Positions 842 to 27,809 of a stretch of 28,261 nucleotides of DNA are shown one piece after another (within the stretch, counting starts at the first letter, position 1; each line of letters starts with the position of its first letter). The notes beneath the pieces were generated by a model that saw only the letters and a list, made by a program, of their open reading frames with translations, made no database searches and had not been told where the DNA came from. Both the position numbers and the translations under genes were made by a program. Source of the DNA: a virus; IMG/VR virus record IMGVR_UViG_3300030012_003309, positions 1-28,261 of that record; one strand, written 5' to 3'.

Positions 842-1171
842 TTAATTACTACTTATAAATATTTCTGAATTTACTGCGAATAATTCCGCATGATCTTTTG
901 AATTGTTATTTAAATTTACCTCTGCAAAATATCCAATTATACCTGATGTATTTTTAGAATTATCTTTTCCAAAGAATATATAACTTGTTTGAGTTAAACC
1001 TGATAAATTACCAGTTGCATTACAAACTATATAAGTATCTGCTATAGTTTGAACGGGTCCAATTTTTTTAATTACGTCAGAATTACCTGATGTATCTAAA
1101 AAATATATTATATCACCTACTTGAAGTGATGTGTTTTTTGTAAATGTTGTTTGTAACGTTATTAAGCTCAT
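842..1171 (-). CDS. Conserved small structural-type protein, 109 aa
   Basis: I place the start at the ATG at 1171. The longer reading frame to 1201 would need a TTG start and would overlap the preceding gene. The protein is beta-rich: VGDIIYFLDTSG (about 18-29), a central YIVCNATGNLS strand pair, and a C-terminal IIGYFAEVNLNNNSKDHAE and ELFAVNSEIFISSN. This C-terminal pattern (GYyAeV..NNS..AELFaV..EifeSS) is familiar to me from short proteins encoded right behind the muzzle gene in marine phages. Position between the muzzle-like and ejection-like genes suggests a minor virion or tail-tip component. No enzymatic motif is visible, and the function is unknown. Confidence 0.65.
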   Translation of the reverse strand: MSLITLQTTFTKNTSLQVGDIIYFLDTSGNSDVIKKIGPVQTIADTYIVCNATGNLSGLTQTSYIFFGKDNSKNTSGIIGYFAEVNLNNNSKDHAELFAVNSEIFISSN

Positions 1172-1191: not shown

Positions 1192-4100
1192 TTATGGACA
1201 ATCAATTAGATAAGCTTGTGACAACGAATACCCATTCCAAATATGATAATACTGTTCATCTGTTGAATAATATTTTGTTCCTGACATTAATGTACCACAA
1301 CCACTTGCCGTATAAATTTGTGTTGAATTTGCGAGAGTAGTGCCATTAATATATATAGTTATTGAATTTCCTCCCCCACATAAATCAGCTGCAGCATTCT
1401 CATCTGTTTCTGGATTGCTAGTTGTCATAAATCCACTTACACTATTACATGAAGACTGAGGAATTGATACTTGAGCTATATCTCCTGTACAAGGATCTGT
1501 ACTATTAATTGTTCCTGTAAGAGTTACACCTGCTGAAAGTGTTAATGTAACTCCACTTTGTAATTGAGATTTAGTAGCGCTTGCTGGACTTACAGTGCCT
1601 GAACTTACAGTAAATCCTACAGATGATGTTCCTGTATGACCAGAACCAAATGTACCTCTTACAACTTGTGTTCCTGCACTACTATTATAATTTCCTTGTG
1701 TAGTTAAAGAAAAACTACAATCAGCAGAATTAGCAGTTTGACAAGCTGAACAACTATTGTGAAACGTAACTATTTCAGAATTACTTTGATTACCTGTAGT
1801 AGTTCCAGTAATTTCGTAACATGTTACTGTGGTTGTTCCCAGCTCAAATATTGTGCCATTAGAAAGCGCATTTATACTTGTATATCTTACAGTTATTACT
1901 TCCTCATCATCGGTACAGTCAGATTGAAGCGCTTGAGCATTATAAAATCTTTCTACAGACACGTTTGTTTGCCAAAATATAAAATGAGGGTCTGAAGTTT
2001 CACTAATACCTGATGCTGTTGCTATAACTCTATAATAAATAAAACCACCTGAAGCTGATGTTACATCAATAGTTGAAGATGTTTCTCCTGATATATCTGC
2101 ATATCCTGAATTTTCACTTGTTGACGACTGCCATTGATAGCCTGTTGGTGTAAATCCTGAAGGCGTAGCTGTTAATGTTGTAGTTTGATTTACTGGTTTT
2201 GAAGTTGTACCACTAACAGAAACACTACACCCAGTACAATCACAACAATCATTATATGGTGAAAAAGGATAATTTCCTACTACTGTTGTGCTATATTGTT
2301 GATTACCTGTAAAATTAGCATTAGTAATTTTATAACAACCAGCAGGTAAAGACCCATCAGAATTTAAATTAACCACCTGGCCTACTTGATAACCATCAGC
2401 ATTCGTAATACGAATATCACGAACAGTTCCATTTGGACAAAGTTGAGCTTGCACCTTTTGTTCTGGCACAGACCAAGTTATCGTGTGTGTATCATTTTGA
2501 TTATTTGCTGTTCCTCCTGAAACTGTACAACCGTATGTTACATTACCGCTGAAATTATTTGCTACTGTTGCTCCAAATGTATTATTACTACCCGATTGAA
2601 CTACCGAGCCTCCAGTTGACCACGCAAAATTTGTTCCCGCAAATCCTGTTTCTTCTGCTGTTAACATAACTGTTGCATATGAACTACCTTGTGTTGCTCC
2701 AGTTATTTCAAATGTTGTACATTCCTGCCAAGTACTAACCACATTACCACTGCTTTCTACATAAGCTCTTTTTGTTCCATCTGAATACGTTCCTACTACA
2801 ACTGCAGGCGAGCTAGATCCATTTTGGTTTCTAGAAAATCTTGTTACTTGTCCTAAATTATCAGCATTGCCATAAAGTGTATATTGCTCACCTGTATTTG
2901 TACAAGCGTCTGTACTAGGTGATGAAGATGAACCACCGACTACACGATTTAAATTTGCATACGTTGTAAAATTTTTCCATAATACACCAACAGCTTGTGG
3001 GTCTGAAGCTGTTTTAGTATTACCACTTTCCTGATAAGTAACTACACAGTTATAATATGTTATTTGTCCCGCTGTATTACTAACTGTATTAAAATTAACG
3101 GTTAATGTTTCGCTATTTGCACCCGATATGTTGCTTAAACTATTAGCTGCCGTTCCCCCTTGCCATTGAAATGAAGGTGTTACTCCTTGTGGCTCATTAG
3201 CTCTTGATGCTGCAGATAAAGTTACTGTTTGTAATTGATTTTGAAAATCGTATATATAAGAATTAGTTGCAGATGCTGTAACATCAACTGTTGGTGTTAA
3301 CATTAAAGTACAACTATTATGCGTATTTGCTAACGTTGGAGCAGAATCATATTGCCCTTCACTAAGTGTTAAATTTATTGCCTCTACTTTCCAGTAATCA
3401 TTACCAGCTTGTTGAGTTGTAAAACTTATTACATTGCCAACTGCTAATGCGTCATTTCCATCTAAATCAACAAAAAAGTTTTGGTCACTACTAGAGTTAT
3501 CACATCTTGAAGCTCTTATACCTTGACTACCACCCCCAGCACTACAAGCTGTATGAGCACCAGGCACTCCACCTGAATTTATAAATCTATAGTTTGTTCC
3601 GTCAGAATATGTTCCTTGTTGAAATCCTGATGTGCTACCTTGATTGTTTACAGCAAATTGTGTTGCGGCTGTGAAACTTCCATTACCAAATATACTTAAT
3701 GTATTTGTTTCTGTACACGCACCTGAGTTGGCTGATGTACCACCGCTTGCAAATTTTAAATTGTTATGAGCAGTCCAAGCTGACCACACAATAGCATGTT
3801 GTGGGGATGTTGCTGGGCCATTTATTACTACTTTATAATATTGTGTTGATGCTGAGCTTTCCGAAACAGTTAATGTTGATGAATTACCCCCTGAAATAGC
3901 TGTACTGTTACTTGGTGTAAATCCTGAAGAGCTACTTTTGTGCCATTGATAAGAAGTTACTACACCTGTTGTATTAGTAGATAATAAAACACTTGAACCA
4001 ACCATAGCTGCTCCAAGACCTGTTATAACCACTGTGGATGCTTGTGGCATATTTATTGTAGCTGTTTCACCATTACATAATCCACCTGATATAGTAGCTG

Positions 4101-7100
4101 TTACTAATACACTTTCTGATGCTGTTACGGTTATTCCACTAGCTAATGCTGATTTTGTTGTAGATGTTGGAGATATAGTTCCTGAAGCTACTGATAAATT
4201 TATAGTTGGATTAGTTCCAATATCAGTACCTGTAAAAGTACCTGATAATGTTGTACCACCTGATGAATATGTAGTTACACCTAAACTAAAAGCACAACTA
4301 CCAGCAGAACCTGTTGCTGTATCAGTACAAGTTAATGTTCCTGAATTTGTATAACCTGATGGTATATTTATTACAGCTGTATATGTACTATTACCTGCTT
4401 GATATGTTGAAGGCGATATGCTAGCTATTGTTCCTAAACTAACAGTACCGCTAACTGTTGCACCAATCGTTCCGTTAGGTATTTGTAAATTAGCATCTGT
4501 ACAAGTAAAAGCTGCATTAGTTGAACCAGCACTAGCTGAACAAGAAATTGTGCTACCTGAATTATCAAAACCTGATGGTGCTAATATTGTTGCTGTGTAT
4601 ACGTTTGTTCCTGTTTGATATGTTGAAGGTGATATAGACTGTATAGTTCCCGATGCAACTGTTCCTGTTACAGTTTGCCCTACTACACCGCTATTTATAT
4701 TTAACGCAGCATTAGCACATCCAAATGTTATTGTTCCACTGTGTGATGATATATTACCTAAACCTTGTATTGAAAAATCTTTTAATCTTGAATCTAACTC
4801 TTTTCCTGATATAGTATTTAATTCTGTTTCAACACCTGATATTAATCCAAAGTACTTGCCTTCTTTTTCTTTAAATTCTAAAATTTGTCCTTTTTGTTGA
4901 TCTGTAATTACTTCTTCAGAGCCAACAGTCCAACCAGTAGTACCTTCGTAGGTTAAATTTTTAAAGTTTTTAATTGCTGAAGCTTCTTGATTAAATATTA
5001 ATTTAATACCAGCAGTTTTTCTTTCACCATAAAAATTACCTCTTTCAGCATTAGGATAGTGGTGCTCGTATAATTTTCCTAAATAACATGTATAATATTT
5101 ACCATTTAAAGAAACTCCTGCATCTGGTATAAAACTTAATTTTGAAACCCAACCCTTTGTATCTTCGCTATAACTTATTGAAGCTCCATAATTTTCTAAA
5201 GAAAGAATATATTGGTCAGAATGAATATCATAACTACCTATTATACTAGTATTACTTTCGTTTAATAAGTTTTCTCTAAAAAAACTTGACATACCAGCTT
5301 CTGATATTACTGTAATTCCATCTCCTGATAATCTTAATACTGCACCTCTTGCTTTATCTGTAAAATATGTTCTATATCCGTGAACTGCAAAAGATTCAGG
5401 ATTTCTTGATATACCATAATCTCCTGCAAAAGCTATTGCTTGCCCTAATACATTTTCAGTTGCTGTTAAATTAACATTGCCGTCAGCATTAAATAAAGCA
5501 TCTTTATTAGCTAAAACTCTTAATACTTTATCTTCACAAAAAGCTATAACATCAGTATTTCTTGTATAAAGTTTTTGTATACTACCATATTCAGGATTTA
5601 ATTCTTTAGTTATTTTTAATCCTACATTAAATTCATTTAATTTATTTATACCACCTAATGAATTATATATACCTGAATATATTAAAGAACTTTTTTGATT
5701 ACGCTCTTTATAATCACCCTCTATTGTTGTTGAAACTTTTACTCCTGGTGATACAACATCTTCATTAAAATCGTCATTAATAGTGCTAGATTCAACACCA
5801 TTACCCATTATATAAGCATTATGCCAAGATAAATCTTGTTGTTGTCCCCATTTATTTTTATCAAAACATTCACTTGTTTCGTAATATATATCTAATACTT
5901 CGTCTTCTGGTATTGTTTCAAATACAGCTGGTGATGTATTAGCTGATACACCTGCGCCAGAGTTTTGACTTGCGTATGTTATTTGAAAAGATGTAGGAAA
6001 TTTACTACTATTATATTTAACCTCAACTTTAGTTACAGTGTTATCTCCGTCAGCAAAAGATAAACCAGATCCTGGAATACCGGCAACGTGTCCTGCTAAA
6101 TCTGCATATGCGCCTCCAGCTGAACTACCCACAACGCTTGATTGAAAATGTTCTGTTAAGCTACTAAGATTAGCTATATCAGTAGTTGAAACAACTTCGA
6201 ATATTTCTCCATCTTTAAAATAAAACTTAGTTAGCTCTACTCTATCTTGAGAATCAGGCGCAGTAACTTGCCCTAAAAATAAAGCATTACTTATACTAGA
6301 AGAACTACCTTGTTTAAAATCAATTTCTAATATTTCACCATTTTTTCCAGCAAGCCCTTGATTTGTAAAAATATTATCAGTTATCTGTGAAGTCTTTTTT
6401 ACTTTAATAAAAAACTTACCGTCAAAAGATTCAACAGCATCTATGTTTTTAGGTTTATTGCCTGATATATCTAATATTTTAAATTTAAAATCATCAGGGT
6501 CGCTACCGTAAGATAATCTAGTATTTGAGTTTAATGCTTTTTTAAGCATCATGTATTGCCCCTCTTTTACTTTATTTATTTCGTAGGAAGGTACAACTAA
6601 CCAACATGTGCCGGAATCTTCTTTATCATTTTTAACAGTTTCAACTATTAAATTATCAAAATTATTAGAACTAGGTTTAATATAATACTTAAATTTTGTT
6701 AATCTAGGATTTGATGGGAATGAGCCACCCATTGTAATACCTAATTTAGTACCAGCAACTGTTCCTGTATCAAACGGCACTTTTAAAGTACCTGATCCTG
6801 TACCACCATCTGCTGTTATAACAGGCGTTTGTCTTCCGTATTCATCTTCAAAAACTACACCTATTTCATATTCTCTACCTGTTTTTATTGTTCTTGTATC
6901 ATATAATCCAGTACCTGTCCCAGATATGACTCCAGATGAAGTTAATTGATTATTACCTATAAATATTCTTCTTGTTAATTCTGCGTCTATAGTATTTCTT
7001 CCTAATGTGGTAATAGTTTGAAAAGTAGGATTATAATCTGATATATTTAAACCATCTTCGTAATTACCAAACACTATTCTATTGCCAACTACTTCAACCG

Positions 7101-8103
7101 CTTTTGCTTTATGAGGTATATTATCAAAAGCTCTTAATAATTGATCTTCTGGTATAACACTTTTTTTAACTGTTTTATTCGCAATATAACCATTAGTGTT
7201 AGCAAGTATTGCTTCAGCTTTAGTTATAGAATCATAAAGATATATATTAGCGTTGTTTGATTCCTTATAAATAATTTCAATGCTTTCAAGTGAATTATGT
7301 GAAGTATCAAATTCAAATAACTGAGCTTCATCAATATTATTTTCCATTTGATTATTAAAGCCCTCATCTATATCGTAAGAGTTAGTAGCACTAGGTAAAA
7401 ATACGGGCTGTGTAAAAGGCGATATTGGAGATCTTTGACCATTATTAAAAACAAATCTATAAGCAAATCTTATAAATTTATTTTCAAATATAGGTGTTGA
7501 TGTTTTAGTAGCAGCTGCAACTTTTATTCTAACACCGGGTGCTTCATCAGGTTTTTTGGTTATTAAAGCAATATCTTTTTCTTCAAAATTATTGCCATTT
7601 ATTTTACTTGTATAATTAAAAAGAGTTTCGCTGTTATTAGAATTGAAAAAACCCGTACTTACAGAATTATCTAAATTAATAATTTTTGGTTCAGAATTGT
7701 CATCTGTAAATATTAAGAAATTATCTAATATAGTTATACCTGTTATTTTTGTAATATTTGAAAAATCTAACACTTTAGTAGCTCTAGCATCTAAAATTAC
7801 AGGCTTAGTTACAGGTGTTGTCCCTGGAGTATATTCAATAATACCGTGAACAGATGTTCCTTTAATAAACATATATAGTTTATCTGTTTCTGTGTTTTCA
7901 ATCATGCCAACACATACACCACCCATACCTGTATTAGATACAATATGATTACCTAGTATATTCTGAGCTGTTCCCGCGTCATCACCTTCAGTGCTTGCTA
8001 TTTGAATATTAGAAGCATCTCTATACTCACCATCAGGAATTAATCTCTCGTCGAGGTCCTTATTCATCTTTCCACGTAGGAAAACCTTTTTTATTTCTGG
8101 CAT
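1192..8103 (-). CDS. Giant muzzle/stabilisation-like tail protein with C-terminal Ig-like and repeat modules, 2303 aa
   Basis: The first ~1110 residues look like the stabilisation ('muzzle') protein that caps the tail of crAss-like and related podoviruses: the N-terminus contains GKMNKDLDERLIPDGEYRD and TAQNILGN, followed by a long beta-rich stretch. The remaining ~1190 residues are a Ser/Thr/Gly-rich array. It has a 72-residue tandem duplication (about 1123-1262, key motif ISPSTYQxGxxxYTA), a CxFSL unit found twice (about 1270-1355 and 2127-2212), and four Ig-like domains with the YQW/FQW/FAW core (about 1358-1443, 1617-1712, 1801-1882, 1960-2043). Between them lie modules with paired cysteines and GTYSDGT (about 1445-1528, 1713-1800, 2043-2122, 2215-2303). 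The array probably projects from the tail tip and touches the host surface (inference). It ends 20 bases before the next gene and starts 4 bases after the adaptor stop. An assembly fusion of two genes is possible, but the frame is uninterrupted. Confidence 0.75.
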   Translation of the reverse strand: MPEIKKVFLRGKMNKDLDERLIPDGEYRDASNIQIASTEGDDAGTAQNILGNHIVSNTGMGGVCVGMIENTETDKLYMFIKGTSVHGIIEYTPGTTPVTKPVILDARATKVLDFSNITKITGITILDNFLIFTDDNSEPKIINLDNSVSTGFFNSNNSETLFNYTSKINGNNFEEKDIALITKKPDEAPGVRIKVAAATKTSTPIFENKFIRFAYRFVFNNGQRSPISPFTQPVFLPSATNSYDIDEGFNNQMENNIDEAQLFEFDTSHNSLESIEIIYKESNNANIYLYDSITKAEAILANTNGYIANKTVKKSVIPEDQLLRAFDNIPHKAKAVEVVGNRIVFGNYEDGLNISDYNPTFQTITTLGRNTIDAELTRRIFIGNNQLTSSGVISGTGTGLYDTRTIKTGREYEIGVVFEDEYGRQTPVITADGGTGSGTLKVPFDTGTVAGTKLGITMGGSFPSNPRLTKFKYYIKPSSNNFDNLIVETVKNDKEDSGTCWLVVPSYEINKVKEGQYMMLKKALNSNTRLSYGSDPDDFKFKILDISGNKPKNIDAVESFDGKFFIKVKKTSQITDNIFTNQGLAGKNGEILEIDFKQGSSSSISNALFLGQVTAPDSQDRVELTKFYFKDGEIFEVVSTTDIANLSSLTEHFQSSVVGSSAGGAYADLAGHVAGIPGSGLSFADGDNTVTKVEVKYNSSKFPTSFQITYASQNSGAGVSANTSPAVFETIPEDEVLDIYYETSECFDKNKWGQQQDLSWHNAYIMGNGVESSTINDDFNEDVVSPGVKVSTTIEGDYKERNQKSSLIYSGIYNSLGGINKLNEFNVGLKITKELNPEYGSIQKLYTRNTDVIAFCEDKVLRVLANKDALFNADGNVNLTATENVLGQAIAFAGDYGISRNPESFAVHGYRTYFTDKARGAVLRLSGDGITVISEAGMSSFFRENLLNESNTSIIGSYDIHSDQYILSLENYGASISYSEDTKGWVSKLSFIPDAGVSLNGKYYTCYLGKLYEHHYPNAERGNFYGERKTAGIKLIFNQEASAIKNFKNLTYEGTTGWTVGSEEVITDQQKGQILEFKEKEGKYFGLISGVETELNTISGKELDSRLKDFSIQGLGNISSHSGTITFGCANAALNINSGVVGQTVTGTVASGTIQSISPSTYQTGTNVYTATILAPSGFDNSGSTISCSASAGSTNAAFTCTDANLQIPNGTIGATVSGTVSLGTIASISPSTYQAGNSTYTAVINIPSGYTNSGTLTCTDTATGSAGSCAFSLGVTTYSSGGTTLSGTFTGTDIGTNPTINLSVASGTISPTSTTKSALASGITVTASESVLVTATISGGLCNGETATINMPQASTVVITGLGAAMVGSSVLLSTNTTGVVTSYQWHKSSSSGFTPSNSTAISGGNSSTLTVSESSASTQYYKVVINGPATSPQHAIVWSAWTAHNNLKFASGGTSANSGACTETNTLSIFGNGSFTAATQFAVNNQGSTSGFQQGTYSDGTNYRFINSGGVPGAHTACSAGGGSQGIRASRCDNSSSDQNFFVDLDGNDALAVGNVISFTTQQAGNDYWKVEAINLTLSEGQYDSAPTLANTHNSCTLMLTPTVDVTASATNSYIYDFQNQLQTVTLSAASRANEPQGVTPSFQWQGGTAANSLSNISGANSETLTVNFNTVSNTAGQITYYNCVVTYQESGNTKTASDPQAVGVLWKNFTTYANLNRVVGGSSSSPSTDACTNTGEQYTLYGNADNLGQVTRFSRNQNGSSSPAVVVGTYSDGTKRAYVESSGNVVSTWQECTTFEITGATQGSSYATVMLTAEETGFAGTNFAWSTGGSVVQSGSNNTFGATVANNFSGNVTYGCTVSGGTANNQNDTHTITWSVPEQKVQAQLCPNGTVRDIRITNADGYQVGQVVNLNSDGSLPAGCYKITNANFTGNQQYSTTVVGNYPFSPYNDCCDCTGCSVSVSGTTSKPVNQTTTLTATPSGFTPTGYQWQSSTSENSGYADISGETSSTIDVTSASGGFIYYRVIATASGISETSDPHFIFWQTNVSVERFYNAQALQSDCTDDEEVITVRYTSINALSNGTIFELGTTTVTCYEITGTTTGNQSNSEIVTFHNSCSACQTANSADCSFSLTTQGNYNSSAGTQVVRGTFGSGHTGTSSVGFTVSSGTVSPASATKSQLQSGVTLTLSAGVTLTGTINSTDPCTGDIAQVSIPQSSCNSVSGFMTTSNPETDENAAADLCGGGNSITIYINGTTLANSTQIYTASGCGTLMSGTKYYSTDEQYYHIWNGYSLSQAYLIDCP
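4320..4740 (-). repeat. Tandem 216-bp (72-aa) repeat inside the muzzle-like gene
   Basis: Two adjacent copies encode related domains: TVTGTVASGTIQSISPSTYQ followed by TGTNVYTA, then TVSGTVSLGTIASISPSTYQ followed by AGNSTYTA. At DNA level, gatatgttgaaggtgatat (from 4617) recurs as gatatgttgaaggcgatat (from 4401), a spacing of exactly 216 bases. Both copies also carry a cysteine near the start (FGCANAAL, FTCTDANL) and an xPSGYxNSG/xPSGFDNSG strand. This is an in-frame domain duplication, not a mobile element. Confidence 0.85.
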
Positions 8104-9196: not shown

Positions 9197-9901
9197 TTAT
9201 GATTTTTCTTGTGTTATTTTTTTTGTTTCTTTTGCATCTGCTAACTGCGCTATATTAGGATCTTTAATACTTACTCCTGCATATAACAATATTTTTAATA
9301 CAAGATTTGTTTCTTCTGAATCATGTAATTCAAAATCAGTAGATGCACTTGCATTATATAAAGCATTACCTGCAACAGTTTGTGAAGCCCACGTAACTGA
9401 ATTAGGTTTTCTAACATATGTTATTGATATATTTGCATTTATAGTAGTTGGATAAACTATTAATCCCCAGTGGCCTGAAGCATTTGCTATGTTTTGAACA
9501 TATACAGGATTATTAGTTGTAGGCGCTGTAAGTTTTGATAATTGATATTCTAATAAATTCTTTTTATCAATTTGTTCAACAGGTGTTGTATTATTATATA
9601 CTACAGTTCCTAATTTATGTAAGTCGGATGGTAAATGAAAATGGTCCGTCATGTAAGATATAGATGCGGACTTTTTAAACTTGCTTAATTTTTCATTTAT
9701 AATTTTTGGCAAATCAGAGTATTCAGTATCATTCTTTGGTAATCTACTGTATTGATTTAGATCAAAGAAATACTGCTCGAATATTTCAAGCTGTGCTTGG
9801 TTTGCAAACAAGTTAAATTCTTGTGGTGTTACATAACCACGGTTTTCTTTATTAAGAATAGCTAATACTCTTTGATATACTGTATCTATGCTAACTGCCA
9901 T
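9197..9901 (-). CDS. Head-tail adaptor (P22 gp4-like ring protein), 234 aa
   Basis: The N-terminus (IDTVYQRVLAILNKENRGYV, then TPQEFNLFANQAQLEIFEQY) is a pattern I associate with the gp4-like tail accessory/ring proteins of crAss-like and marine podoviruses: an alpha-helical start with a Gly-Tyr-[VI]-[TP]-P turn. The middle (FHLPSDLHKLGTVVYN, VEQIDKKNLLEYQLS) and the beta stretch HWGLIVYPTTINANISITYV, then RKPNSVTW, fit the same family. A charged helical C-terminus follows. Such proteins bind the portal ring and extend the DNA channel after packaging. The start codon sits 14 bases after a strong RNA hairpin (9916-9952), so mRNA processing or attenuation could set its level. Confidence 0.6.
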   Translation of the reverse strand: MAVSIDTVYQRVLAILNKENRGYVTPQEFNLFANQAQLEIFEQYFFDLNQYSRLPKNDTEYSDLPKIINEKLSKFKKSASISYMTDHFHLPSDLHKLGTVVYNNTTPVEQIDKKNLLEYQLSKLTAPTTNNPVYVQNIANASGHWGLIVYPTTINANISITYVRKPNSVTWASQTVAGNALYNASASTDFELHDSEETNLVLKILLYAGVSIKDPNIAQLADAKETKKITQEKS

Positions 9902-18099: not shown

Positions 18100-18374
18100 T
18101 ATCTAGATCTTTTTTCTGCAAATCCTTTAAAAGCTTCATTCTTTTCTTGAGGCTTATTTTCAAGCATTGCTTTTTCAGATTCAATCCTATTTAATATTTC
18201 AAAAGCATCAAAGATAGCTAATTTTTTTGTAGCTGCTGCGTTTTTTAATCTATCCGCTGCTAGTTCATCTGCTGCGTCTTCAACTATAATTTCTTCTTCA
18301 GCGACCTTGATTAACTCTTTTACAGCTTTATAACCAGCTAGTATTATAGAGTTTTTCTGTTCCTTTGTGTTCAT
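18099..18374 (-). CDS. Small helical protein preceding the terminase, 91 aa
   Basis: A short, charged, Ala/Glu-rich and largely helical protein (GYKAVKELIKVAEEEIIVED, DELAADRLKNAAATKKLAIF, DAFEILNRIESEKAML), with a basic end GFAEKRSR. It begins inside the 3' end of the GroES-like gene (47-base overlap) and its stop overlaps the terminase start as TAATG. Position directly before terL is where a small terminase subunit is often found, but at 91 aa with no visible DNA-binding helix-turn-helix this is only a possibility. I do not recognise a family. Confidence 0.6.
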   Translation of the reverse strand: MNTKEQKNSIILAGYKAVKELIKVAEEEIIVEDAADELAADRLKNAAATKKLAIFDAFEILNRIESEKAMLENKPQEKNEAFKGFAEKRSR

Positions 18375-18912
18375 ACTTTATTGAAATATCATTTAATTTT
18401 ATTCTATATAGTCTTTTATCGCCAACTATAAACTCAAACTCTGAGTAAGGTGTAAAACCTATTAGCTCACCTTCTTTTACAAAATCTGTACCGTCTGTGT
18501 AAACTACAATACCTTTCAATGGTTCTTCTTTGTTTTCCCATTTATTTTCTGATTGTATAGGATTTACAAAACAATATCCCGGCATTGCTATCCAATTATC
18601 ATTTCTTTTATACATGTATACTTGATCTAAGTAACAAAAATACATATCTTCTTTGAAATAATTACCACTATTTTTTTCATTTCCTCTTACATCGTAGTAT
18701 CTTCTAAATATATTGTGATGTACTAATACTTCATCAGACTCGCGTAGAGGCGTTTTAAACGCTCCTGGAAGAGCTTTTACTATAGCTTCTTTACTTACAT
18801 ACCTATGGTCACTAATTGACGTGTTTAGGATTAAGTTTTTATCGGATATTTTTTTGGTGTTTTTATAGCGGTTTTCTTTTGGTTGTATTATTAAAGCGTA
18901 TGGGTTATTCAT
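18328..18912 (-). CDS. Putative co-chaperonin with two tandem GroES-like units, 194 aa
   Basis: Two halves each follow the GroES strand order. Unit 1 (about 5-103): YALIIQPKENRYKN at the roof strand, LILNTSIS, SKEAIVKALPG (compare GEVVAVGxG), LRESDEVLVHHN (compare VKVGDxVLF) and KEDMYFCYLDQVYMYK (compare EEYLILRExDILAI). Unit 2 (about 107-181): PGYCFVNPIQ, PLKGIVVYTD, FVKEGELIGFTPYSEFEF and VGDKRLYRIKLNDISIKY. Both end with the closing-strand pattern of GroES. Phage co-chaperonins (T4 gp31, RB49 CocO) dock on host GroEL to fold the capsid protein; a gene beside the packaging/capsid block fits such a role. A duplicated single-chain form recalls plastid Cpn20, but the mobile-loop IVL tripeptide is not obvious. 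Homology is judged by eye. Confidence 0.55.
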   Translation of the reverse strand: MNNPYALIIQPKENRYKNTKKISDKNLILNTSISDHRYVSKEAIVKALPGAFKTPLRESDEVLVHHNIFRRYYDVRGNEKNSGNYFKEDMYFCYLDQVYMYKRNDNWIAMPGYCFVNPIQSENKWENKEEPLKGIVVYTDGTDFVKEGELIGFTPYSEFEFIVGDKRLYRIKLNDISIKYEHKGTEKLYNTSWL

Positions 18913-19395: not shown

Positions 19396-22300
19396 TTAGT
19401 TTATTTTGAATGCCATATACAATCTATACACATTGCTAGATTCACTTGTGGCTGTAAACCCTGTGCTTGTAAATGTGATAAGACTCTGTGATGATTCAGC
19501 ATCACTACTCTGTGCTTTTAATTGAACATCATCATCTCTTACACTGTCAATCATTGACCAACTTCCTCCTGCTCCATAGTCTTGGTGCATTACAAAATCA
19601 GGTTGGAATCCTAAATTTATTGTTGTTGTTCCTCCTTGCCAGTACCCAAACTTACTAAAACCAGTAACAGAGTGAAAACAATAGGCAATAAAATGGTCAT
19701 TTTCTTCAGTTACAGAACCAGCACTACCAACACTAAACACTGTATTAGTAGGGGCTGTATCATTCCATATATTAGATGAAGTGGCTTGCGCTGAGCTATC
19801 GTTTAAATTTCTATATTTAGTTGGTCCCATAGCTGTATGATAAACTCTCCAGTCGTCGGAACCAGATCTATTTTTAACTATAATCATTTCAGGAGCTGAA
19901 TTTAATCCATGTCCTATGGTTGTAGCGGATCCAGTACCTATATAACTAACAACACTCATTCCTGCATTTGCGTTTACAAGAACAATTGAATCAGTATTTC
20001 CATCTGTATTAATTACAGGCTCATCATTATCCATTTTCCAAGCCCATCCAACATATGTACTACCATTACCGTTTACAGCCCCATCTGTAAATAAAGAAAA
20101 TCCATCCTGATCAAACGATGCTAACCTTGATGTAGTATCAGTTACTTCACCACCATCTGTGGTACTATGCAGATATTTAGAAGAACCTCTAATTGCATCG
20201 TATAAATATGGGTGTTCTGTGTTATTTCTACCTTTAATCCATAAAAATCCAGGTTTGAAGCCTACGCGAGTAATACTTCTATTTGACCCGGTACCTGTCC
20301 ATGTAACCGTGTTAAAACTTTTTGCTTTAGTAGGTACTACCGTGTCTGGATCTTCTGCAAACGCCATATATAAATATTTTTCATTATTAGCGTTAATTAA
20401 ATTATCTGAGGATATTACTCTAAATCCATTTCCATAAAACTCTACTTTTGCGGCATAATTTGAATATTCAGTATCAGTTAAATTAATAAATAAAGCCTCA
20501 TCTCTTGGATTTAATGGGCTTCTTTTATTATCTACCATAAACCAATGATCTGCTCTATCTAAGCTTTTTATTATTAAAAATGCAGGCTCAAATCCTGTTG
20601 TAACTATAGGGCCGTTTGCGTTCCCGTTACCTGTGTATTTGCTAATTTTTGAAAACCCTGCAACTGATACAAAGCTATAATAAATACGATCATTTGTGTC
20701 TCCTGGATTTGTAAATACTGTAGATGTTGGAAGACTATATGAACTAGGGTCTGGCCCGTTATTTGTATTAAATTTCATATAGTCTAATGTCCCATCTATA
20801 ACTGTAGTATAAAATGTCCAATCATCTGACGCATCTAAATTTTTTCTTACAATTACTTCAGGGGTAGAACCTAATCCATGACCAAAAGTTGCTGATGACC
20901 CACTTCCTGTAACTTTTGCTATTGCAAATCCAGCAGCAGAATTTGATTGTACTGTGCTTGTAATTGCACCGTCACTATTACTAGATGTTGTACCTCCATT
21001 TGCTTTTAGACACCAAGCCACATAATCTATTCCACTGTTATTTATATTGTTATCACCATTTGTTGTGAACCCTCCTGTATCAAATGATTGCACTGTTTGA
21101 GGCTGAGTCGATTCTGCTGCTGTGCTGTTTGGCGCTAATTGTTTTGTAGCACCTCTTGTACTATCATAAATATTATGATGATCAGCTTGTGTTCTTGGTT
21201 TTATCCAAACAAAATCTGGTTTAAATCCAAGACCAAACTCATAATCCATATTGCTATCTGATCCATTTGATCTTAGAACCTCATCTTTTGAATTACCATC
21301 AAATTTATAAAACCCAGATAAAGATGTTTCATTATATAATGCCATCGCTTCTCCTGGACTAATCCATCTATTATAAATTCTTACTTGGTCCATTTGCCCA
21401 TCAAATCCACCGCTTTGACTAGCTCTTGATTCATCACCTAATCTTAACGCTCCCGGGGATGCTTTACGAGTATTATATCTACTTGTGCTAGCCCACGGTT
21501 GTTCTACACCATTTACATATATTTTATGATTATCAGCTTGAACTGCAAAAACAAGGTGAACCCATTCATTAGCCTGAAAAGTTCTTGCTACTTGTCCACT
21601 ACCATAGCTACTACCATTATATGTGTTCCATTGAAGAACTAAAGCGTCATCACCTGAACTATACATTGCAACACCACTTCCTGCAAAATGATTTGCAGAT
21701 TGCCTATCAGCTGAATCTACTAAAAACATGTTTTGATTAAACTCATCAAAATTTACCCACATTGAAAAACTTCTATCACCATTTATTCCACAATCATCTA
21801 AATCTACATAACTGTTATTATTTCCTGCAAAATCTATAGCATGCGATCCGAATTTTGAATCAGTAGTATACGATGTACCTGTTGCATTACCATTATTATT
21901 TCCCGCTGTATCTGTTGTATTGTTGTTAAACTGATAAAATCTAGTTGCTCCTTTTACAGATGTTTCTGTTTCTGATAAAGGATTTAAAGACGCAGGATCT
22001 GTTTCATTATAAAGCGTTGAAACTTCTGAAGATGATATAGCTCTTGTAAATATACGAAGCTGATCTATTTTACCATTAAAATAACCACTTGTCGATGCTC
22101 TTCTATATCCTATACCATAATTACTATCAGCAGTATTAGCATTTCCTGTCTGCGAACCTGAAGTTGCCATACTAACCGCGGAACCATTAACATATATTTG
22201 TGTGTTAGTTGCGGTTTCAATAGCTCCACCATTATATGTTACCGCTACATGATACCAAGTATCTACTGCAATATGTGCTGCGCTTGTTATTGCATCTCTA

Positions 22301-23319
22301 TTATAATATTCTACATAAAGCTTTCCTGATGTATCAATAGCAAACCCAAATCTTTGTCCATTTGCAGCAGCACCGTGTTGATATATAGTTTGTGCGGAAC
22401 TTAAACTATCCGTATTAATCCATGCTGATATAGTTCTTTCTGTATTTCCTCCGAGCCCCATGTTGCCAATATCTATTTTAGCATTAGTTCCATTAAAGTA
22501 TGCTGCACCTCCATATTTACCCCCATTTACTTCACGACCTGTTGCACCATCTCCTGTATAAAGCATAACACCAAAACTCTGTGAAGGCAATTTATTTGTA
22601 ACTGTTATGCTAAAAGCCCTAGAAGCAGTTTGATTTTCATTATCTGTGGCTGTGATAGTAAAATTACTAGTTGTATCTGCTGATACAGAAGGAGCGGTTC
22701 CTGTTATAGCACCTGTTGATGTATTTAGCGAACCTCCGCTTGGTAGTGCTCCTGATGTAACTGCGTATGTTATAGCGCCCCCATCTGATTCGGTTGCAGC
22801 AACAGTAAATGACATAGAATCACCTTCGCCTACACTTCCTAAACTTCCTGCGTTTGTAGTCCATGTTGGTAAAGCATTGTATACAGATGTTACTGTGACA
22901 GTTCCTCCATCGGTATTAGTTATTTTTAAATCGTGATTTCCTGCTGCTTTTGCAGGGGCTACTACTGATAATTGTGTTGCAGAATTTAGTGTTATAGATG
23001 TTGCGTTAGTACCACCAAAAGTTACTGTTGCACCTGCTTTAAAATTAGTACCATTAATAAGCAAAGTTTCTCCTCCAGCAGGATCTAAAGTTGTTTTATT
23101 TCCAGGATAATCAAGTGAAGTAACTGTTGGATTTTGCACACCTATTTGACTCCAGCTAGTGCCATCATATACTTCAGTTTTACCAACTGTTGTATTAAAC
23201 CTAATAAATCCTGCAGCAGCAGAGCTAGGTCTTTGCGCTGTAGTACCAGTCGGTATTTTTAAATAATCAGTTGATTCTGTAAATTTTAATAACCCTTGTT
23301 CTATTTTAGTCTGTGCCAT
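19396..23319 (-). CDS. Large tail fibre with TIG, He_PIG-like and two LamG-like lectin domains, 1307 aa
   Basis: The N-terminal ~60 residues carry the fibre-attachment-type motif GTTAQRPSSAAAGFIRFNTT then EVYDGTSWSQIG. Next come an IPT/TIG Ig-like domain (about 62-148, SLDYPGNKTTLDPAGGETLL) and a He_PIG/cadherin-like domain (about 150-242, GALPSGGSLNTSTGAITGTA). Two concanavalin/LamG-like domains follow (about 262-440 and 455-661), each closing with the hallmark IDQLRIFTRAISSSEV or MDQVRIYNRWISPGEA followed by LYNE. From about 690 to the end, repeats of a FKPDFVWIKPRTQADHHN-type domain run to the C-terminal YMAFKIN. The lectin domains are expected to bind surface glycans, so this is a likely receptor-binding protein. 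It is a paralogue of the 896-aa fibre, which lacks the lectin insert. Confidence 0.8.
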   Translation of the reverse strand: MAQTKIEQGLLKFTESTDYLKIPTGTTAQRPSSAAAGFIRFNTTVGKTEVYDGTSWSQIGVQNPTVTSLDYPGNKTTLDPAGGETLLINGTNFKAGATVTFGGTNATSITLNSATQLSVVAPAKAAGNHDLKITNTDGGTVTVTSVYNALPTWTTNAGSLGSVGEGDSMSFTVAATESDGGAITYAVTSGALPSGGSLNTSTGAITGTAPSVSADTTSNFTITATDNENQTASRAFSITVTNKLPSQSFGVMLYTGDGATGREVNGGKYGGAAYFNGTNAKIDIGNMGLGGNTERTISAWINTDSLSSAQTIYQHGAAANGQRFGFAIDTSGKLYVEYYNRDAITSAAHIAVDTWYHVAVTYNGGAIETATNTQIYVNGSAVSMATSGSQTGNANTADSNYGIGYRRASTSGYFNGKIDQLRIFTRAISSSEVSTLYNETDPASLNPLSETETSVKGATRFYQFNNNTTDTAGNNNGNATGTSYTTDSKFGSHAIDFAGNNNSYVDLDDCGINGDRSFSMWVNFDEFNQNMFLVDSADRQSANHFAGSGVAMYSSGDDALVLQWNTYNGSSYGSGQVARTFQANEWVHLVFAVQADNHKIYVNGVEQPWASTSRYNTRKASPGALRLGDESRASQSGGFDGQMDQVRIYNRWISPGEAMALYNETSLSGFYKFDGNSKDEVLRSNGSDSNMDYEFGLGFKPDFVWIKPRTQADHHNIYDSTRGATKQLAPNSTAAESTQPQTVQSFDTGGFTTNGDNNINNSGIDYVAWCLKANGGTTSSNSDGAITSTVQSNSAAGFAIAKVTGSGSSATFGHGLGSTPEVIVRKNLDASDDWTFYTTVIDGTLDYMKFNTNNGPDPSSYSLPTSTVFTNPGDTNDRIYYSFVSVAGFSKISKYTGNGNANGPIVTTGFEPAFLIIKSLDRADHWFMVDNKRSPLNPRDEALFINLTDTEYSNYAAKVEFYGNGFRVISSDNLINANNEKYLYMAFAEDPDTVVPTKAKSFNTVTWTGTGSNRSITRVGFKPGFLWIKGRNNTEHPYLYDAIRGSSKYLHSTTDGGEVTDTTSRLASFDQDGFSLFTDGAVNGNGSTYVGWAWKMDNDEPVINTDGNTDSIVLVNANAGMSVVSYIGTGSATTIGHGLNSAPEMIIVKNRSGSDDWRVYHTAMGPTKYRNLNDSSAQATSSNIWNDTAPTNTVFSVGSAGSVTEENDHFIAYCFHSVTGFSKFGYWQGGTTTINLGFQPDFVMHQDYGAGGSWSMIDSVRDDDVQLKAQSSDAESSQSLITFTSTGFTATSESSNVYRLYMAFKIN

Positions 23320-25118: not shown

Positions 25119-27809
25119 TTAGTTTATTTTTATTGCCATATATATCATTGTACGAGCTGTTCCTCCTGAGGGATAGTAGTTGTGGTTGTCTGTTAGCATT
25201 GTAAACCCATTACTATCAAATTGCATGTGACCTGCATTTATTTCAGTAGCTGATGTATTTGGATATAACCCTTTAGCTGATCTAGCACTATCATATATAT
25301 TCCAAGAATTACCGTCAGCATCTAATTTAACTAATAAAAAATCTGGTTGAAATCCTGTTGTAATTGAATTCGTTGTACTAACAGCTGGATTTGTACCTTG
25401 ATATGTTCCTATTTTAGAATACCCAGTTACTGAATGGAAACAATAAGCAATATAGCTACCGTTGTTGCTATTAATACAATTACCGGAAGCACAATTACTT
25501 AAAGTAAATACCGAGCTTGTTGGTGTTGTGTTATTAAATGCAGCATCAGTAGCTGACCCGTCAGTATTATTTAAATGTACTGTTTTATTATTACCTAGCG
25601 AGTGATGATATACTATCCAATCTTCTCCATAATCTAGTCTTTTTACCATAATTAATTCTGGAGCAGATGATAGTCCATGCCCCACGGTAGCTCCTGCAGC
25701 CTGTGTGCCATCATACCTAACAATACTAAATCCCGCGTTTGGGTTTGCACTAACTATTGAATTTATACTTCCATCCGTATTAATTGTAGGTTCATTGTCG
25801 TCAGCTTTCCAAAAATATCCTACGTAAGTATTACTTGCTGCATTTGAAGGGCTAGTAGAACCATAAAGTTTTGTGGAAGTAGCAAGAAATTCTTCTATAC
25901 CATAACTTCCTGAAGCTTCTGCATTATTTTCATTGGGTAAAATCCATTTTCCAGGCCCTCTAACAATATCAAAACCTCCCCAGTGGTGTCCCACAGTTCT
26001 AGCTTTAGTAAAAAGCAATCCTGTTTTAAACCCATTGTTAATTGTTAACGATGAATTTTGTCCAGACCATGTTAAAGCATCAAAGCTATTAGCCAAAGTA
26101 GGGGTTGTTGTATCAGGGTCAGCCGCAAAAGCCATATATAAATAAGTGCCACCATTTGTATTCCAACCATTATCTGAATTTATTATTTGAAAACCATTGG
26201 ATAAAAAATTAATAGCATAAGAACTGTTTGTATATTCTTGATCATTATTGTGAGCTTGTAAAATTTTTGTACGCGGGTTAGAAGTGTCTCTTTTATTATC
26301 TGTTATATTCCAACCAGAAGTACCGTCCGTCCTTTTAAACATTATAAATGCAGGCTCGAATCCCGTGTTTACAATTGGCCCGTTTGCCGAACCATTACCT
26401 GTATATTTTCCTATTTTTGAAAATCCTGCAACAGATTTAAAAGAATAAGTAATCCAATCAGCACCTGCAGAAGAGGTTACGGTTCTAAATGTTGTACTAG
26501 TCGCGTAAGTAGCAGAATAATCAACTTTTCCACCAGTAGCATTTAAAGTTAATTCGTCCCAGCTTCCATCTATTACATCTGTATATAAAAACCAAGAACC
26601 AGTACTACTTAACTTTTTATAAAGCACAGCATCAGGTTTACCACTTAACCCATGTCCAATGGTATGTGAACTACTACTCGTCGATGTCCATTTAGCTATA
26701 GAAAACCCCAAATTATCATTAGCTTGAACTGTAGATGTAATATCCCCGTCTGAATTACTACTAGTAGTTCCCCCATTTGCTCTAAAACACCAAGCTACAT
26801 ACGTAGCACCACTTGCATTAAGAGCCCCATTAGCTCCTGTAGTGAATCCATCTGCATCAAAAGAACTTATTGCACCTGTCTTTGTAGCTTCTGCTGCATT
26901 TGAGTTACTTAATATTTCTTTTTGAACTCCTCTTGTAGAATCAAACCAAGCGTTATCATCACCAGCACTTCTTTTTTTAGCCCACACTAAATCAGGTTTA
27001 AAGCCAATTCCTGTAATTGCTTGTGTACCGCCATTTCCTGTGTATGTTTTTACACTAAAATGTTGTGAAGGAGAATTATTGGTTACTGTAATACTGTATG
27101 CTCTTGCATTTGATTGATTTTCATTATCTGTTGCGGTTACTGTAAAATTACTTGTAGTATCAGCAGACACACTTGGGGCTGTACCTGTAATCGCCCCTGT
27201 AGAAGCGTTTATACTTAATCCTGATGGCAACGCTCCTGATGTTATAACATGATTTACCGCCCCTCCATCTGGCTCAGTAGCTGCTGCAGATAAACTAACA
27301 GTTGATCCTTCTTCAACACTTCCTAAACTACCAGCTGCATTTGAAAATGCGGGAATACCGTTGTATGAAACTGCGTTAGCAGAAGTTGATGTTCCCCCGT
27401 CTGTATTTGTTATAACAAGAGCATATGTGCCTGCTGATTTAGCTGGAGTGGTTACAGTTAATTGCGTTGCTGAATTCCTTGTTATACTTGATGGAGTAGT
27501 TCCTCCAATTGTAACTGTCACCCCGGTATTAAATGTGCTACCATTAATTATAAGAGATTGATTTCCTGCAGGATCTAAAGCTGTATCGTCTCCTGGATAG
27601 TCAACTGACGAAAATGTAGGCGGTGCAATACCCATTCTAGCCCAATTAGTACCATCATATACCTCTGCATCATTTATAGTTGTATTAAACCTAAATTGTC
27701 CAGCAGCTGGAGAACCTGGCCTCTGAGCTGTTGTACCTGAAGGTAATTTTACAAAATCAGTATCGTCACTGAATCCTAAAAGGTTTTTATCTAATTTAGT
27801 TAATGCCAT
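25119..27809 (-). CDS. Large tail fibre with TIG and He_PIG-like domains and fibre-type repeats, 896 aa
   Basis: The architecture is an N-terminal module with GTTAQRPGSPAAGQFRFNTT and EVYDGTNWARMG (about 1-60), an IPT/TIG domain (62-150, SSVDYPGDDTALDPAGNQSL), and a He_PIG/cadherin-like domain (152-244, GALPSGLSINASTGAITGTA). From 253 to 896 runs a series of repeat domains beginning GIGFKPDLVWAKKRSAGDD, with recurring YVAWCFRANGGTTSSNSDG, VAGFSKIGKYTGNGSANGP and GFEPAFIMFK stretches. The repeats resemble a phage-fibre domain of unknown function (the DUF7483-type, from memory). The C-terminus is YMAIKIN. The start forms TAATG with the preceding chaperone-like gene. It is the shorter paralogue of the 1307-aa fibre and is probably a receptor-binding fibre. 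Confidence 0.8.
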   Translation of the reverse strand: MALTKLDKNLLGFSDDTDFVKLPSGTTAQRPGSPAAGQFRFNTTINDAEVYDGTNWARMGIAPPTFSSVDYPGDDTALDPAGNQSLIINGSTFNTGVTVTIGGTTPSSITRNSATQLTVTTPAKSAGTYALVITNTDGGTSTSANAVSYNGIPAFSNAAGSLGSVEEGSTVSLSAAATEPDGGAVNHVITSGALPSGLSINASTGAITGTAPSVSADTTSNFTVTATDNENQSNARAYSITVTNNSPSQHFSVKTYTGNGGTQAITGIGFKPDLVWAKKRSAGDDNAWFDSTRGVQKEILSNSNAAEATKTGAISSFDADGFTTGANGALNASGATYVAWCFRANGGTTSSNSDGDITSTVQANDNLGFSIAKWTSTSSSSHTIGHGLSGKPDAVLYKKLSSTGSWFLYTDVIDGSWDELTLNATGGKVDYSATYATSTTFRTVTSSAGADWITYSFKSVAGFSKIGKYTGNGSANGPIVNTGFEPAFIMFKRTDGTSGWNITDNKRDTSNPRTKILQAHNNDQEYTNSSYAINFLSNGFQIINSDNGWNTNGGTYLYMAFAADPDTTTPTLANSFDALTWSGQNSSLTINNGFKTGLLFTKARTVGHHWGGFDIVRGPGKWILPNENNAEASGSYGIEEFLATSTKLYGSTSPSNAASNTYVGYFWKADDNEPTINTDGSINSIVSANPNAGFSIVRYDGTQAAGATVGHGLSSAPELIMVKRLDYGEDWIVYHHSLGNNKTVHLNNTDGSATDAAFNNTTPTSSVFTLSNCASGNCINSNNGSYIAYCFHSVTGYSKIGTYQGTNPAVSTTNSITTGFQPDFLLVKLDADGNSWNIYDSARSAKGLYPNTSATEINAGHMQFDSNGFTMLTDNHNYYPSGGTARTMIYMAIKIN

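Follow-up and report, generated by a model that had tools for sequence, protein, structure and literature searches.

The stretch of DNA considered here, referred to as the window, is a fragment of 28,261 nucleotides (nt; IMG/VR record IMGVR_UViG_3300030012_003309, positions 1 to 28,261) from a marine phage that is a distant relative of crAssphage. Its minus strand holds, at positions 1192-8103, a single uninterrupted frame of 2303 amino acids (aa) in which a crAss-type muzzle, i.e., a homologue of gp44 of phi-crAss001, continues into an array of 1185 residues made of internally repeated, beta-rich modules; a preliminary description of the window had rightly recognized this fusion of a muzzle to an adhesin-like array. 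Our reading, to which we give a probability of about 0.6, is that the array is an adhesin-like cargo that occupies a recurrent slot in the muzzle gene and that, together with re-docking of the terminal domain (TD) of the muzzle, it would provide surface-binding chains. The assignment to a recurrent slot follows from a rule that ties the state of the TD to the presence of cargo and from the homology between fused and separate cargoes.

The TD comprises about 105 residues, and in cultured relatives it ends the muzzle directly after the propeller and an F-x-x-QG-[LIV]-G motif. The order in the window is array, stop codon, and then an open reading frame (ORF) for the TD, so that the simple C-terminal fusion first supposed does not describe the locus: the muzzle's own TD has moved out into a gene of its own that follows the array.

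842..1171, minus strand: separate TD gene, 109 aa from its own ATG, in a frame open from 1201, directly behind the array

This ORF matches positions 147-237 of the 241 positions of phrog_18548 (E 2.5e-7), a family that through its positions 4-157 also matches muzzle residues 975-1137, and it reaches E 2e-31, among 10,684 scanned ORFs, with a hidden Markov model (HMM) derived solely from the fused TDs of 14 muzzles. In all 12 fused-cargo loci examined (the window and 11 others), the TD starts at an ATG of its own, placed at the muzzle stop or shortly behind it, so that programmed frameshifting from the array into the TD is not favoured.

Regarding the relatives, a muzzle-profile scan of IMG/VR was followed up for the best 80 of 579 confirmed loci, and the classed sample comprises 87 distinct muzzle loci, the window excluded; L050 and L052 have one and the same protein. 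The TD is fused in 14 of the 87, has its own ORF in 48, and is not visible in 24, most of which end at a contig edge; the last locus, L011, was dropped here and from most counts because its contig is full of frameshifts. Among the 62 loci with a visible TD, the 14 with a fused TD are all without cargo, and the 48 with a separate TD all carry cargo of at least 126 aa between core and TD, at least 339 aa in 47 of them. The smallest cargo has 126 aa (L039), the next 339 aa (L028), and the largest about 2000 aa. This cargo is an in-frame extension only in 13 loci, a separate ORF only in 29, and both in 6, where a separate ORF means a stop-to-stop frame of 200 aa or more, i.e., a putative gene, and extension lengths are anchored on the QG[LIV] motif, since earlier values depended on profile ends. 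A regular expression for the F-x-x-QG-[LIV]-G motif finds it before the cargo in 42 of the 48 loci, with an incidental place in L009 and L037, and the joint is the same position throughout the cargo loci.

Fused and separate cargoes are also related to one another. From a set of 62 cargo sequences (22 extensions and 40 separate ORFs), 41 fall into one mixed component linked by blastp, and 8 of the 22 in-frame extensions have a blastp match (E<=1e-5) among the separate cargo ORFs of other loci, the best matches having E values of 1.4e-37 (L085 with L077) and 2.0e-37 (L038 with L033). A ninth match, between L079 and L063, was discarded, as it falls within the muzzle core. The cargo group of the window (L008, L009, L010, and L018) stands alone at the blastp threshold. 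The muzzle cores were also placed on a quick tree (83 rows, 62 of them labelled, with the window included, L011 unlabelled, and the duplicate L052 dropped; 19 of the 80 inner branches are open), on which at least 15 changes are required to explain the four states, 4 to explain the presence or absence of cargo, and 10 to explain fused or separate cargo among the 48 cargo loci. Relatives hold the same or quite different cargo there, either fused or separate, which gives the joint the look of a socket in which surface-binding parts can be exchanged.

The type of cargo varies by lineage, from immunoglobulin (Ig)/PKD to cadherin-like, TSP3, and Cys-rich modules; cargoes of the relatives match Cadherin_3/4/5, Big_9, TSP3_bac, and K319L-like_PKD, and once Hint families, while 2 of the 8 tested match no family. 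As observations in their own right, the muzzle extension of L050/L052 has bacterial TSP3 repeats (TSP3_bac E 2.4e-11), and the muzzle ORF of L053 (8041-17127) has a 1099-aa extension with a terminal Hint domain (PT-HINT E 1.2e-9), which suggests possible self-processing. Panino, phi13:2, and ctfjg026 have the muzzle divided between two genes. The break in split muzzles falls near profile position 960 (L004 8010-13580, L005 8001-14021, and L091 9001-14173), and the N-terminal piece has extra residues after the break, namely 497 in L004 (phi13:2), 351 in L005 (ctfjg026), and 251 in L091; possibly, the break is another site for cargo. The two pieces of the ctfjg026 muzzle are separated by a putative glycosidase gene.

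The muzzle core of the window comprises residues 1-1118, up to the motif SIQGLGNI (nt 4750). The conserved part does end roughly where it was first placed, near residue 1110, and the motif moves the boundary to 1118.

4750..8103, minus strand: muzzle core, matching phrog_14478 (E 1.9e-129) and the gp44 profile (E 1.2e-5)
4849..5046, minus strand: crAss_MUZ_C, residues 1020-1085, PF25729 (E 6.5e-8)

The PF25729 match scores 33.3 bits against a cut-off of 27. The structure model of the core, which is of middling confidence (mean predicted local distance difference test, pLDDT, 54.4), has as its best solved match gp44 of crAss001 (7qok_A, Foldseek E 4e-18) and aligns with it over 582 residues (VIA-align Z 19.3, root-mean-square deviation 6.5); at that confidence, it has the propeller and inserted domains of the gp44 fold.

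According to the accessible text of PMC10172136, gp44 is a five-domain protein in which IG1 occupies 163-292 and IG2 together with crass 318-1021. Propeller-only proteins align to core-model residues of about 49-1017, so the region after about 1017 must be the ring-joining part; in addition, a gp44-family profile aligns with the part from after the propeller to near the joint (E 1.1e-17). From these models we infer that the array is anchored in the ring-joining part of the muzzle, behind the beta-propeller, which would put its attachment near the ring-muzzle joint and not at the distal crass domain. Of the receptor-binding device at the tail tip that had been proposed, the device is plausible and the place at the tail tip is not supported.

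The same attachment point admits a different reading, in which the array is kept within the lumen of the tail, next to the ring-joining domain, and is either ejected or fills space; the accessible part of PMC10172136 shows lumen density in crAss001 at this place. We regard this as improbable, given that Ig, cadherin-like, and TSP3 domains, along with an enrichment in cysteines (30 in the 1185-residue array versus 5 in the 1118-residue core), suggest that the domains are extracellular, exposed, and oxidised. Moreover, the crAss001 tail cavity has a volume of 8.15e5 cubic angstrom in that text, and by our own arithmetic six copies of about 1185 aa would nearly fill a cavity of this size.

The array (residues 1119-2303, nt 4749-1195) is composed of the following modules, whose repeats were measured by profile-profile comparison.

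4297..4719, minus strand: tandem A1 (1129-1198) and A2 (1199-1269), matching each other at 99% over 66 columns
4036..4296, minus strand: B1, a CxFSL unit (1270-1356), 99% with B2 over 84 columns
3781..4035, minus strand: Ig-like module 1 (1357-1441), 97% with Ig4, 88-92% with Ig3, 79-92% with Ig2
3538..3780, minus strand: Y1 with GTYSDGT (1442-1522), 98% with Y2
3298..3525, minus strand: X1 (1527-1602), weak match to Y4 and Z3
2986..3297, minus strand: Ig-like module 2 (1603-1706), matching Ig1 and not Ig3 or Ig4
2716..2985, minus strand: Y2 with GTYSDGT (1707-1796), 98% with Y1
2470..2715, minus strand: Ig-like module 3 (1797-1878), 88-92% with Ig1
2233..2469, minus strand: Z3, Cys-rich (1879-1957), weak match to Y4
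1969..2232, minus strand: Ig-like module 4 (1958-2045), 97% with Ig1
1735..1968, minus strand: Y4, Cys-containing (2046-2123), weak match to X1 and Z3
1453..1722, minus strand: B2, second CxFSL unit (2128-2217), 99% with B1
1195..1452, minus strand: Y5, C-terminal Cys module (2218-2303), weak match to Y1 and Y2, 7-24%

The tandem duplication and the pair of CxFSL units given in the preliminary description are both borne out. Its four Ig-like domains are clear for the first, third, and fourth; the second is a weak member, because Ig2-Ig3 and Ig2-Ig4 stay below 10%. Its cysteine-paired GTYSDGT modules are clear for Y1 and Y2; Y5 matches these only weakly, and X1, Z3, and Y4 pairwise reach 42% at best. 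The AlphaFold model of the array is poor (pLDDT 36.6), its better-modelled parts being B1 (mostly 60-78) and B2 (about 50-81). A PDB profile search with the array and a PDB search with the window protein alone gave no match, and Pfam scans found no BACON match in the array and its homologues and no lectin family in the window protein or the array homologues. Of the 5 array homologues, 2 give a weak match to K319L-like_PKD (best E 0.002), and the window's own sequence gives none.

An IMG/VR scan with the protein returned five loci, four of which include the array region (L008, L009, L010, and the frameshifted L011), the fifth, L012, ending inside the muzzle; a profile scan with the array alone returned only L008, L009, and L010, and the muzzle-profile scan added L018, which has the same array. 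L008 (2313 aa) and L009 (2382 aa) have the array in one open frame that runs to a stop; in L010 and L018, the frame likewise stays open until the contig is cut. L011 is collinear with the window, has frameshifts in the ring, muzzle, and array genes, and looks like uncorrected long-read sequence. An assembly artefact joining two genes, which had been named as a possible refutation, is ruled out, as is chance, because these four further contigs carry the same architecture in an open frame, and with nothing found in its favour its chance is practically nil. The other refutation that had been named, i.e., that all relatives carry the array, is true of the nearest clade (L008, L009, L010, L018, and L011 in pieces) but not beyond it: the muzzles of phi38:1 (1324 aa), Gundel_1 (1386 aa), and elemoA (1470 aa) are without it.

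Many bacteria have secreted proteins with modules of the array types, and it is this general knowledge that would speak for a recent, host-derived adhesin fused to the muzzle, the origin first suggested. We hold such an acquisition to be very improbable. Two pattern-based scans of a genome collection (84,980 species), which reach close relatives only, found no relative of the array, and no plasmid matched it; a phage search likewise gave no credible match, only three at chance level (E 0.6-0.7). The array is common to phages whose cores are 97 (L008), 78, 68, and 52% identical to that of the window, and it is therefore old in its clade. Its nearest kin are other phages, including the Ig modules of the L019 muzzle extension, which the Ig HMM of the array matches with E 3.2e-17.

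Within this clade the array differs from the core in how it varies. Between the window and L008, identity is 97% in the core but only 64% in B1 and 62% in Ig1, where the window is 84-90% identical to L009 and L010, and the L008 version is nearest to L011 (77%; others 54-57%). Nucleotide identity between the window and L008 falls to 63-73% at B1/Ig1. By site patterns, L008 alone differs at 102 sites and the window alone at 15 in residues 1255-1445, compared with 37 and 27, respectively, in the core. Since fourfold-degenerate sites diverge along with the amino acids (60% identity in 1255-1445 versus 87-92% in the core), alleles appear to have been replaced, and point selection alone does not account for the pattern. 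A second divergent block between the two spans 1603-1957, and residues 2128-2303 are 96-99% identical; Y2 is the most divergent module (49% identity), and Y5 is 96% identical. Residues 1590-1700 of the window share 94.5% identity with part of an ORF in L011, although the cores share only 58%. Block-wise replacement by recombination is the simplest reading of these sequence comparisons, by which array modules would be exchanged between phages.

Turning to the neighbourhood, the genes upstream of the muzzle run in the same direction and encode virion proteins of 361 and 234 aa and a 248-aa protein, followed further upstream by a capsid-type virion protein, a 404-aa protein, the portal, and the terminase, an order that matches Cellulophaga phi38:1 and the elemo phages. 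Where the order Crassvirales has several genes for tail-barrel ring proteins, the window shows one SU10_adaptor-like gene (9197-9901, below the cut-off) beside the muzzle; the window is a genome fragment. A 194-aa protein upstream of the terminase (18328-18912) is GroES-like (phrog_13932, E 4.7e-13).

If the array is such a cargo, the TD would be made in trans and would probably re-dock on the muzzle core, and six copies of the array would radiate from the ring-muzzle joint as flexible, probably disulfide-stabilised chains that, with about a dozen beta modules each, could by our estimate reach some tens of nanometres. These chains would bind the host envelope or host-associated glycans, and their engagement might help the muzzle gate to open. 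More tentatively, and with the odds somewhat against it, the muzzle could be a split re-docking socket in which lineages swap whole adhesins, fused or separate, and which would couple the sensing of surfaces straight to the DNA gate at the ring-muzzle joint, with no docked tail fibres in between.

The main rival, which we judge unlikely, is that what the array binds is environmental material (glycans, polysaccharide from algae or sponges, or particles), by which virions would be retained near hosts, the true receptor-binding proteins being the upstream LamG/DUF7483 fibre proteins. The window does contain fibre-like genes with Laminin_G_3 and Sialidase N-terminal matches, and the accessible text of PMC13370021 has Ig/PKD adhesins of gut phages mediating adherence to targets other than the host. 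The fusion to a DNA gate and the block-wise switching of alleles among nearly identical phages fit selection by the host surface at least as well.

Several findings weigh against the cargo reading as a whole. Two other likely fibre proteins are encoded in the window (19396-23319 and 25119-27809), which share DUF7483, He_PIG, and TIG, one of them having two Laminin_G_3 stretches; they are candidate primary receptor-binding proteins, so receptor binding may lie with them. The TD has no significant match in crAss001 gp44, nor was the comparison of its last strands with the end of gp44 significant (E 0.28). The array of the window has no significant Pfam family in its own sequence in the Pfam scan and no PHROG match, and the Foldseek list of its model consists of Fn3/Ig tandems that carry little weight because the model is poor, and that were not used as proof. 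The cargo of L039 is a short charged tail and not adhesin-like, L063 is doubtful as a separate case, its next ORF beginning inside the muzzle core, and none of 6 named phage records bears cargo at the joint.

Should the cargo reading hold, crAss-related phages would have a fixed, repeatedly used position at which they change surface-binding parts, and a gate protein would be linked directly to adhesins. It would also give a place to unannotated ORFs between muzzle and TD in uncultured relatives, which are predicted to sit on the muzzle because of their fused homologues, and concrete candidate proteins for the question of how crAss-like phages recognize their hosts.

Among known systems, gp44 of phi-crAss001 (7qok/7qol; PMC10172136, accessible text) shares the ring-joining domain, the seven-bladed propeller, and the Ig insertions, but has 1371 aa and no array, and that text assigns the variation in muzzle length to insertions in crass and IG2 rather than to the ring-joining joint. 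Cellulophaga phi38:1 gp097 and its relatives (Pervagoviridae, Pachyviridae, and Elemovirus) have a homologous core and TD; unlike in the window, their TD is fused and the joint holds no cargo. The L019 extension is likewise in frame at this joint and contains Ig modules akin to those of the array, although no A, B, or Y modules were detected in it. Adhesin domains on phage virions are already known (PMC13370021, in part), and Ig-like chains of virions have been proposed to serve adherence both for the Ig/BACON/PKD adhesins of gut phages, where the accessible portion of PMC13370021 mentions no muzzle, and for the tentaclins, whose chain, in the accessible portion of PMC10743442, has an N-terminal C-type lectin domain, where in the window a propeller muzzle precedes it. 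We found no account in the open-licence literature of cargo at the muzzle joint, either fused or separate, with the TD in trans.

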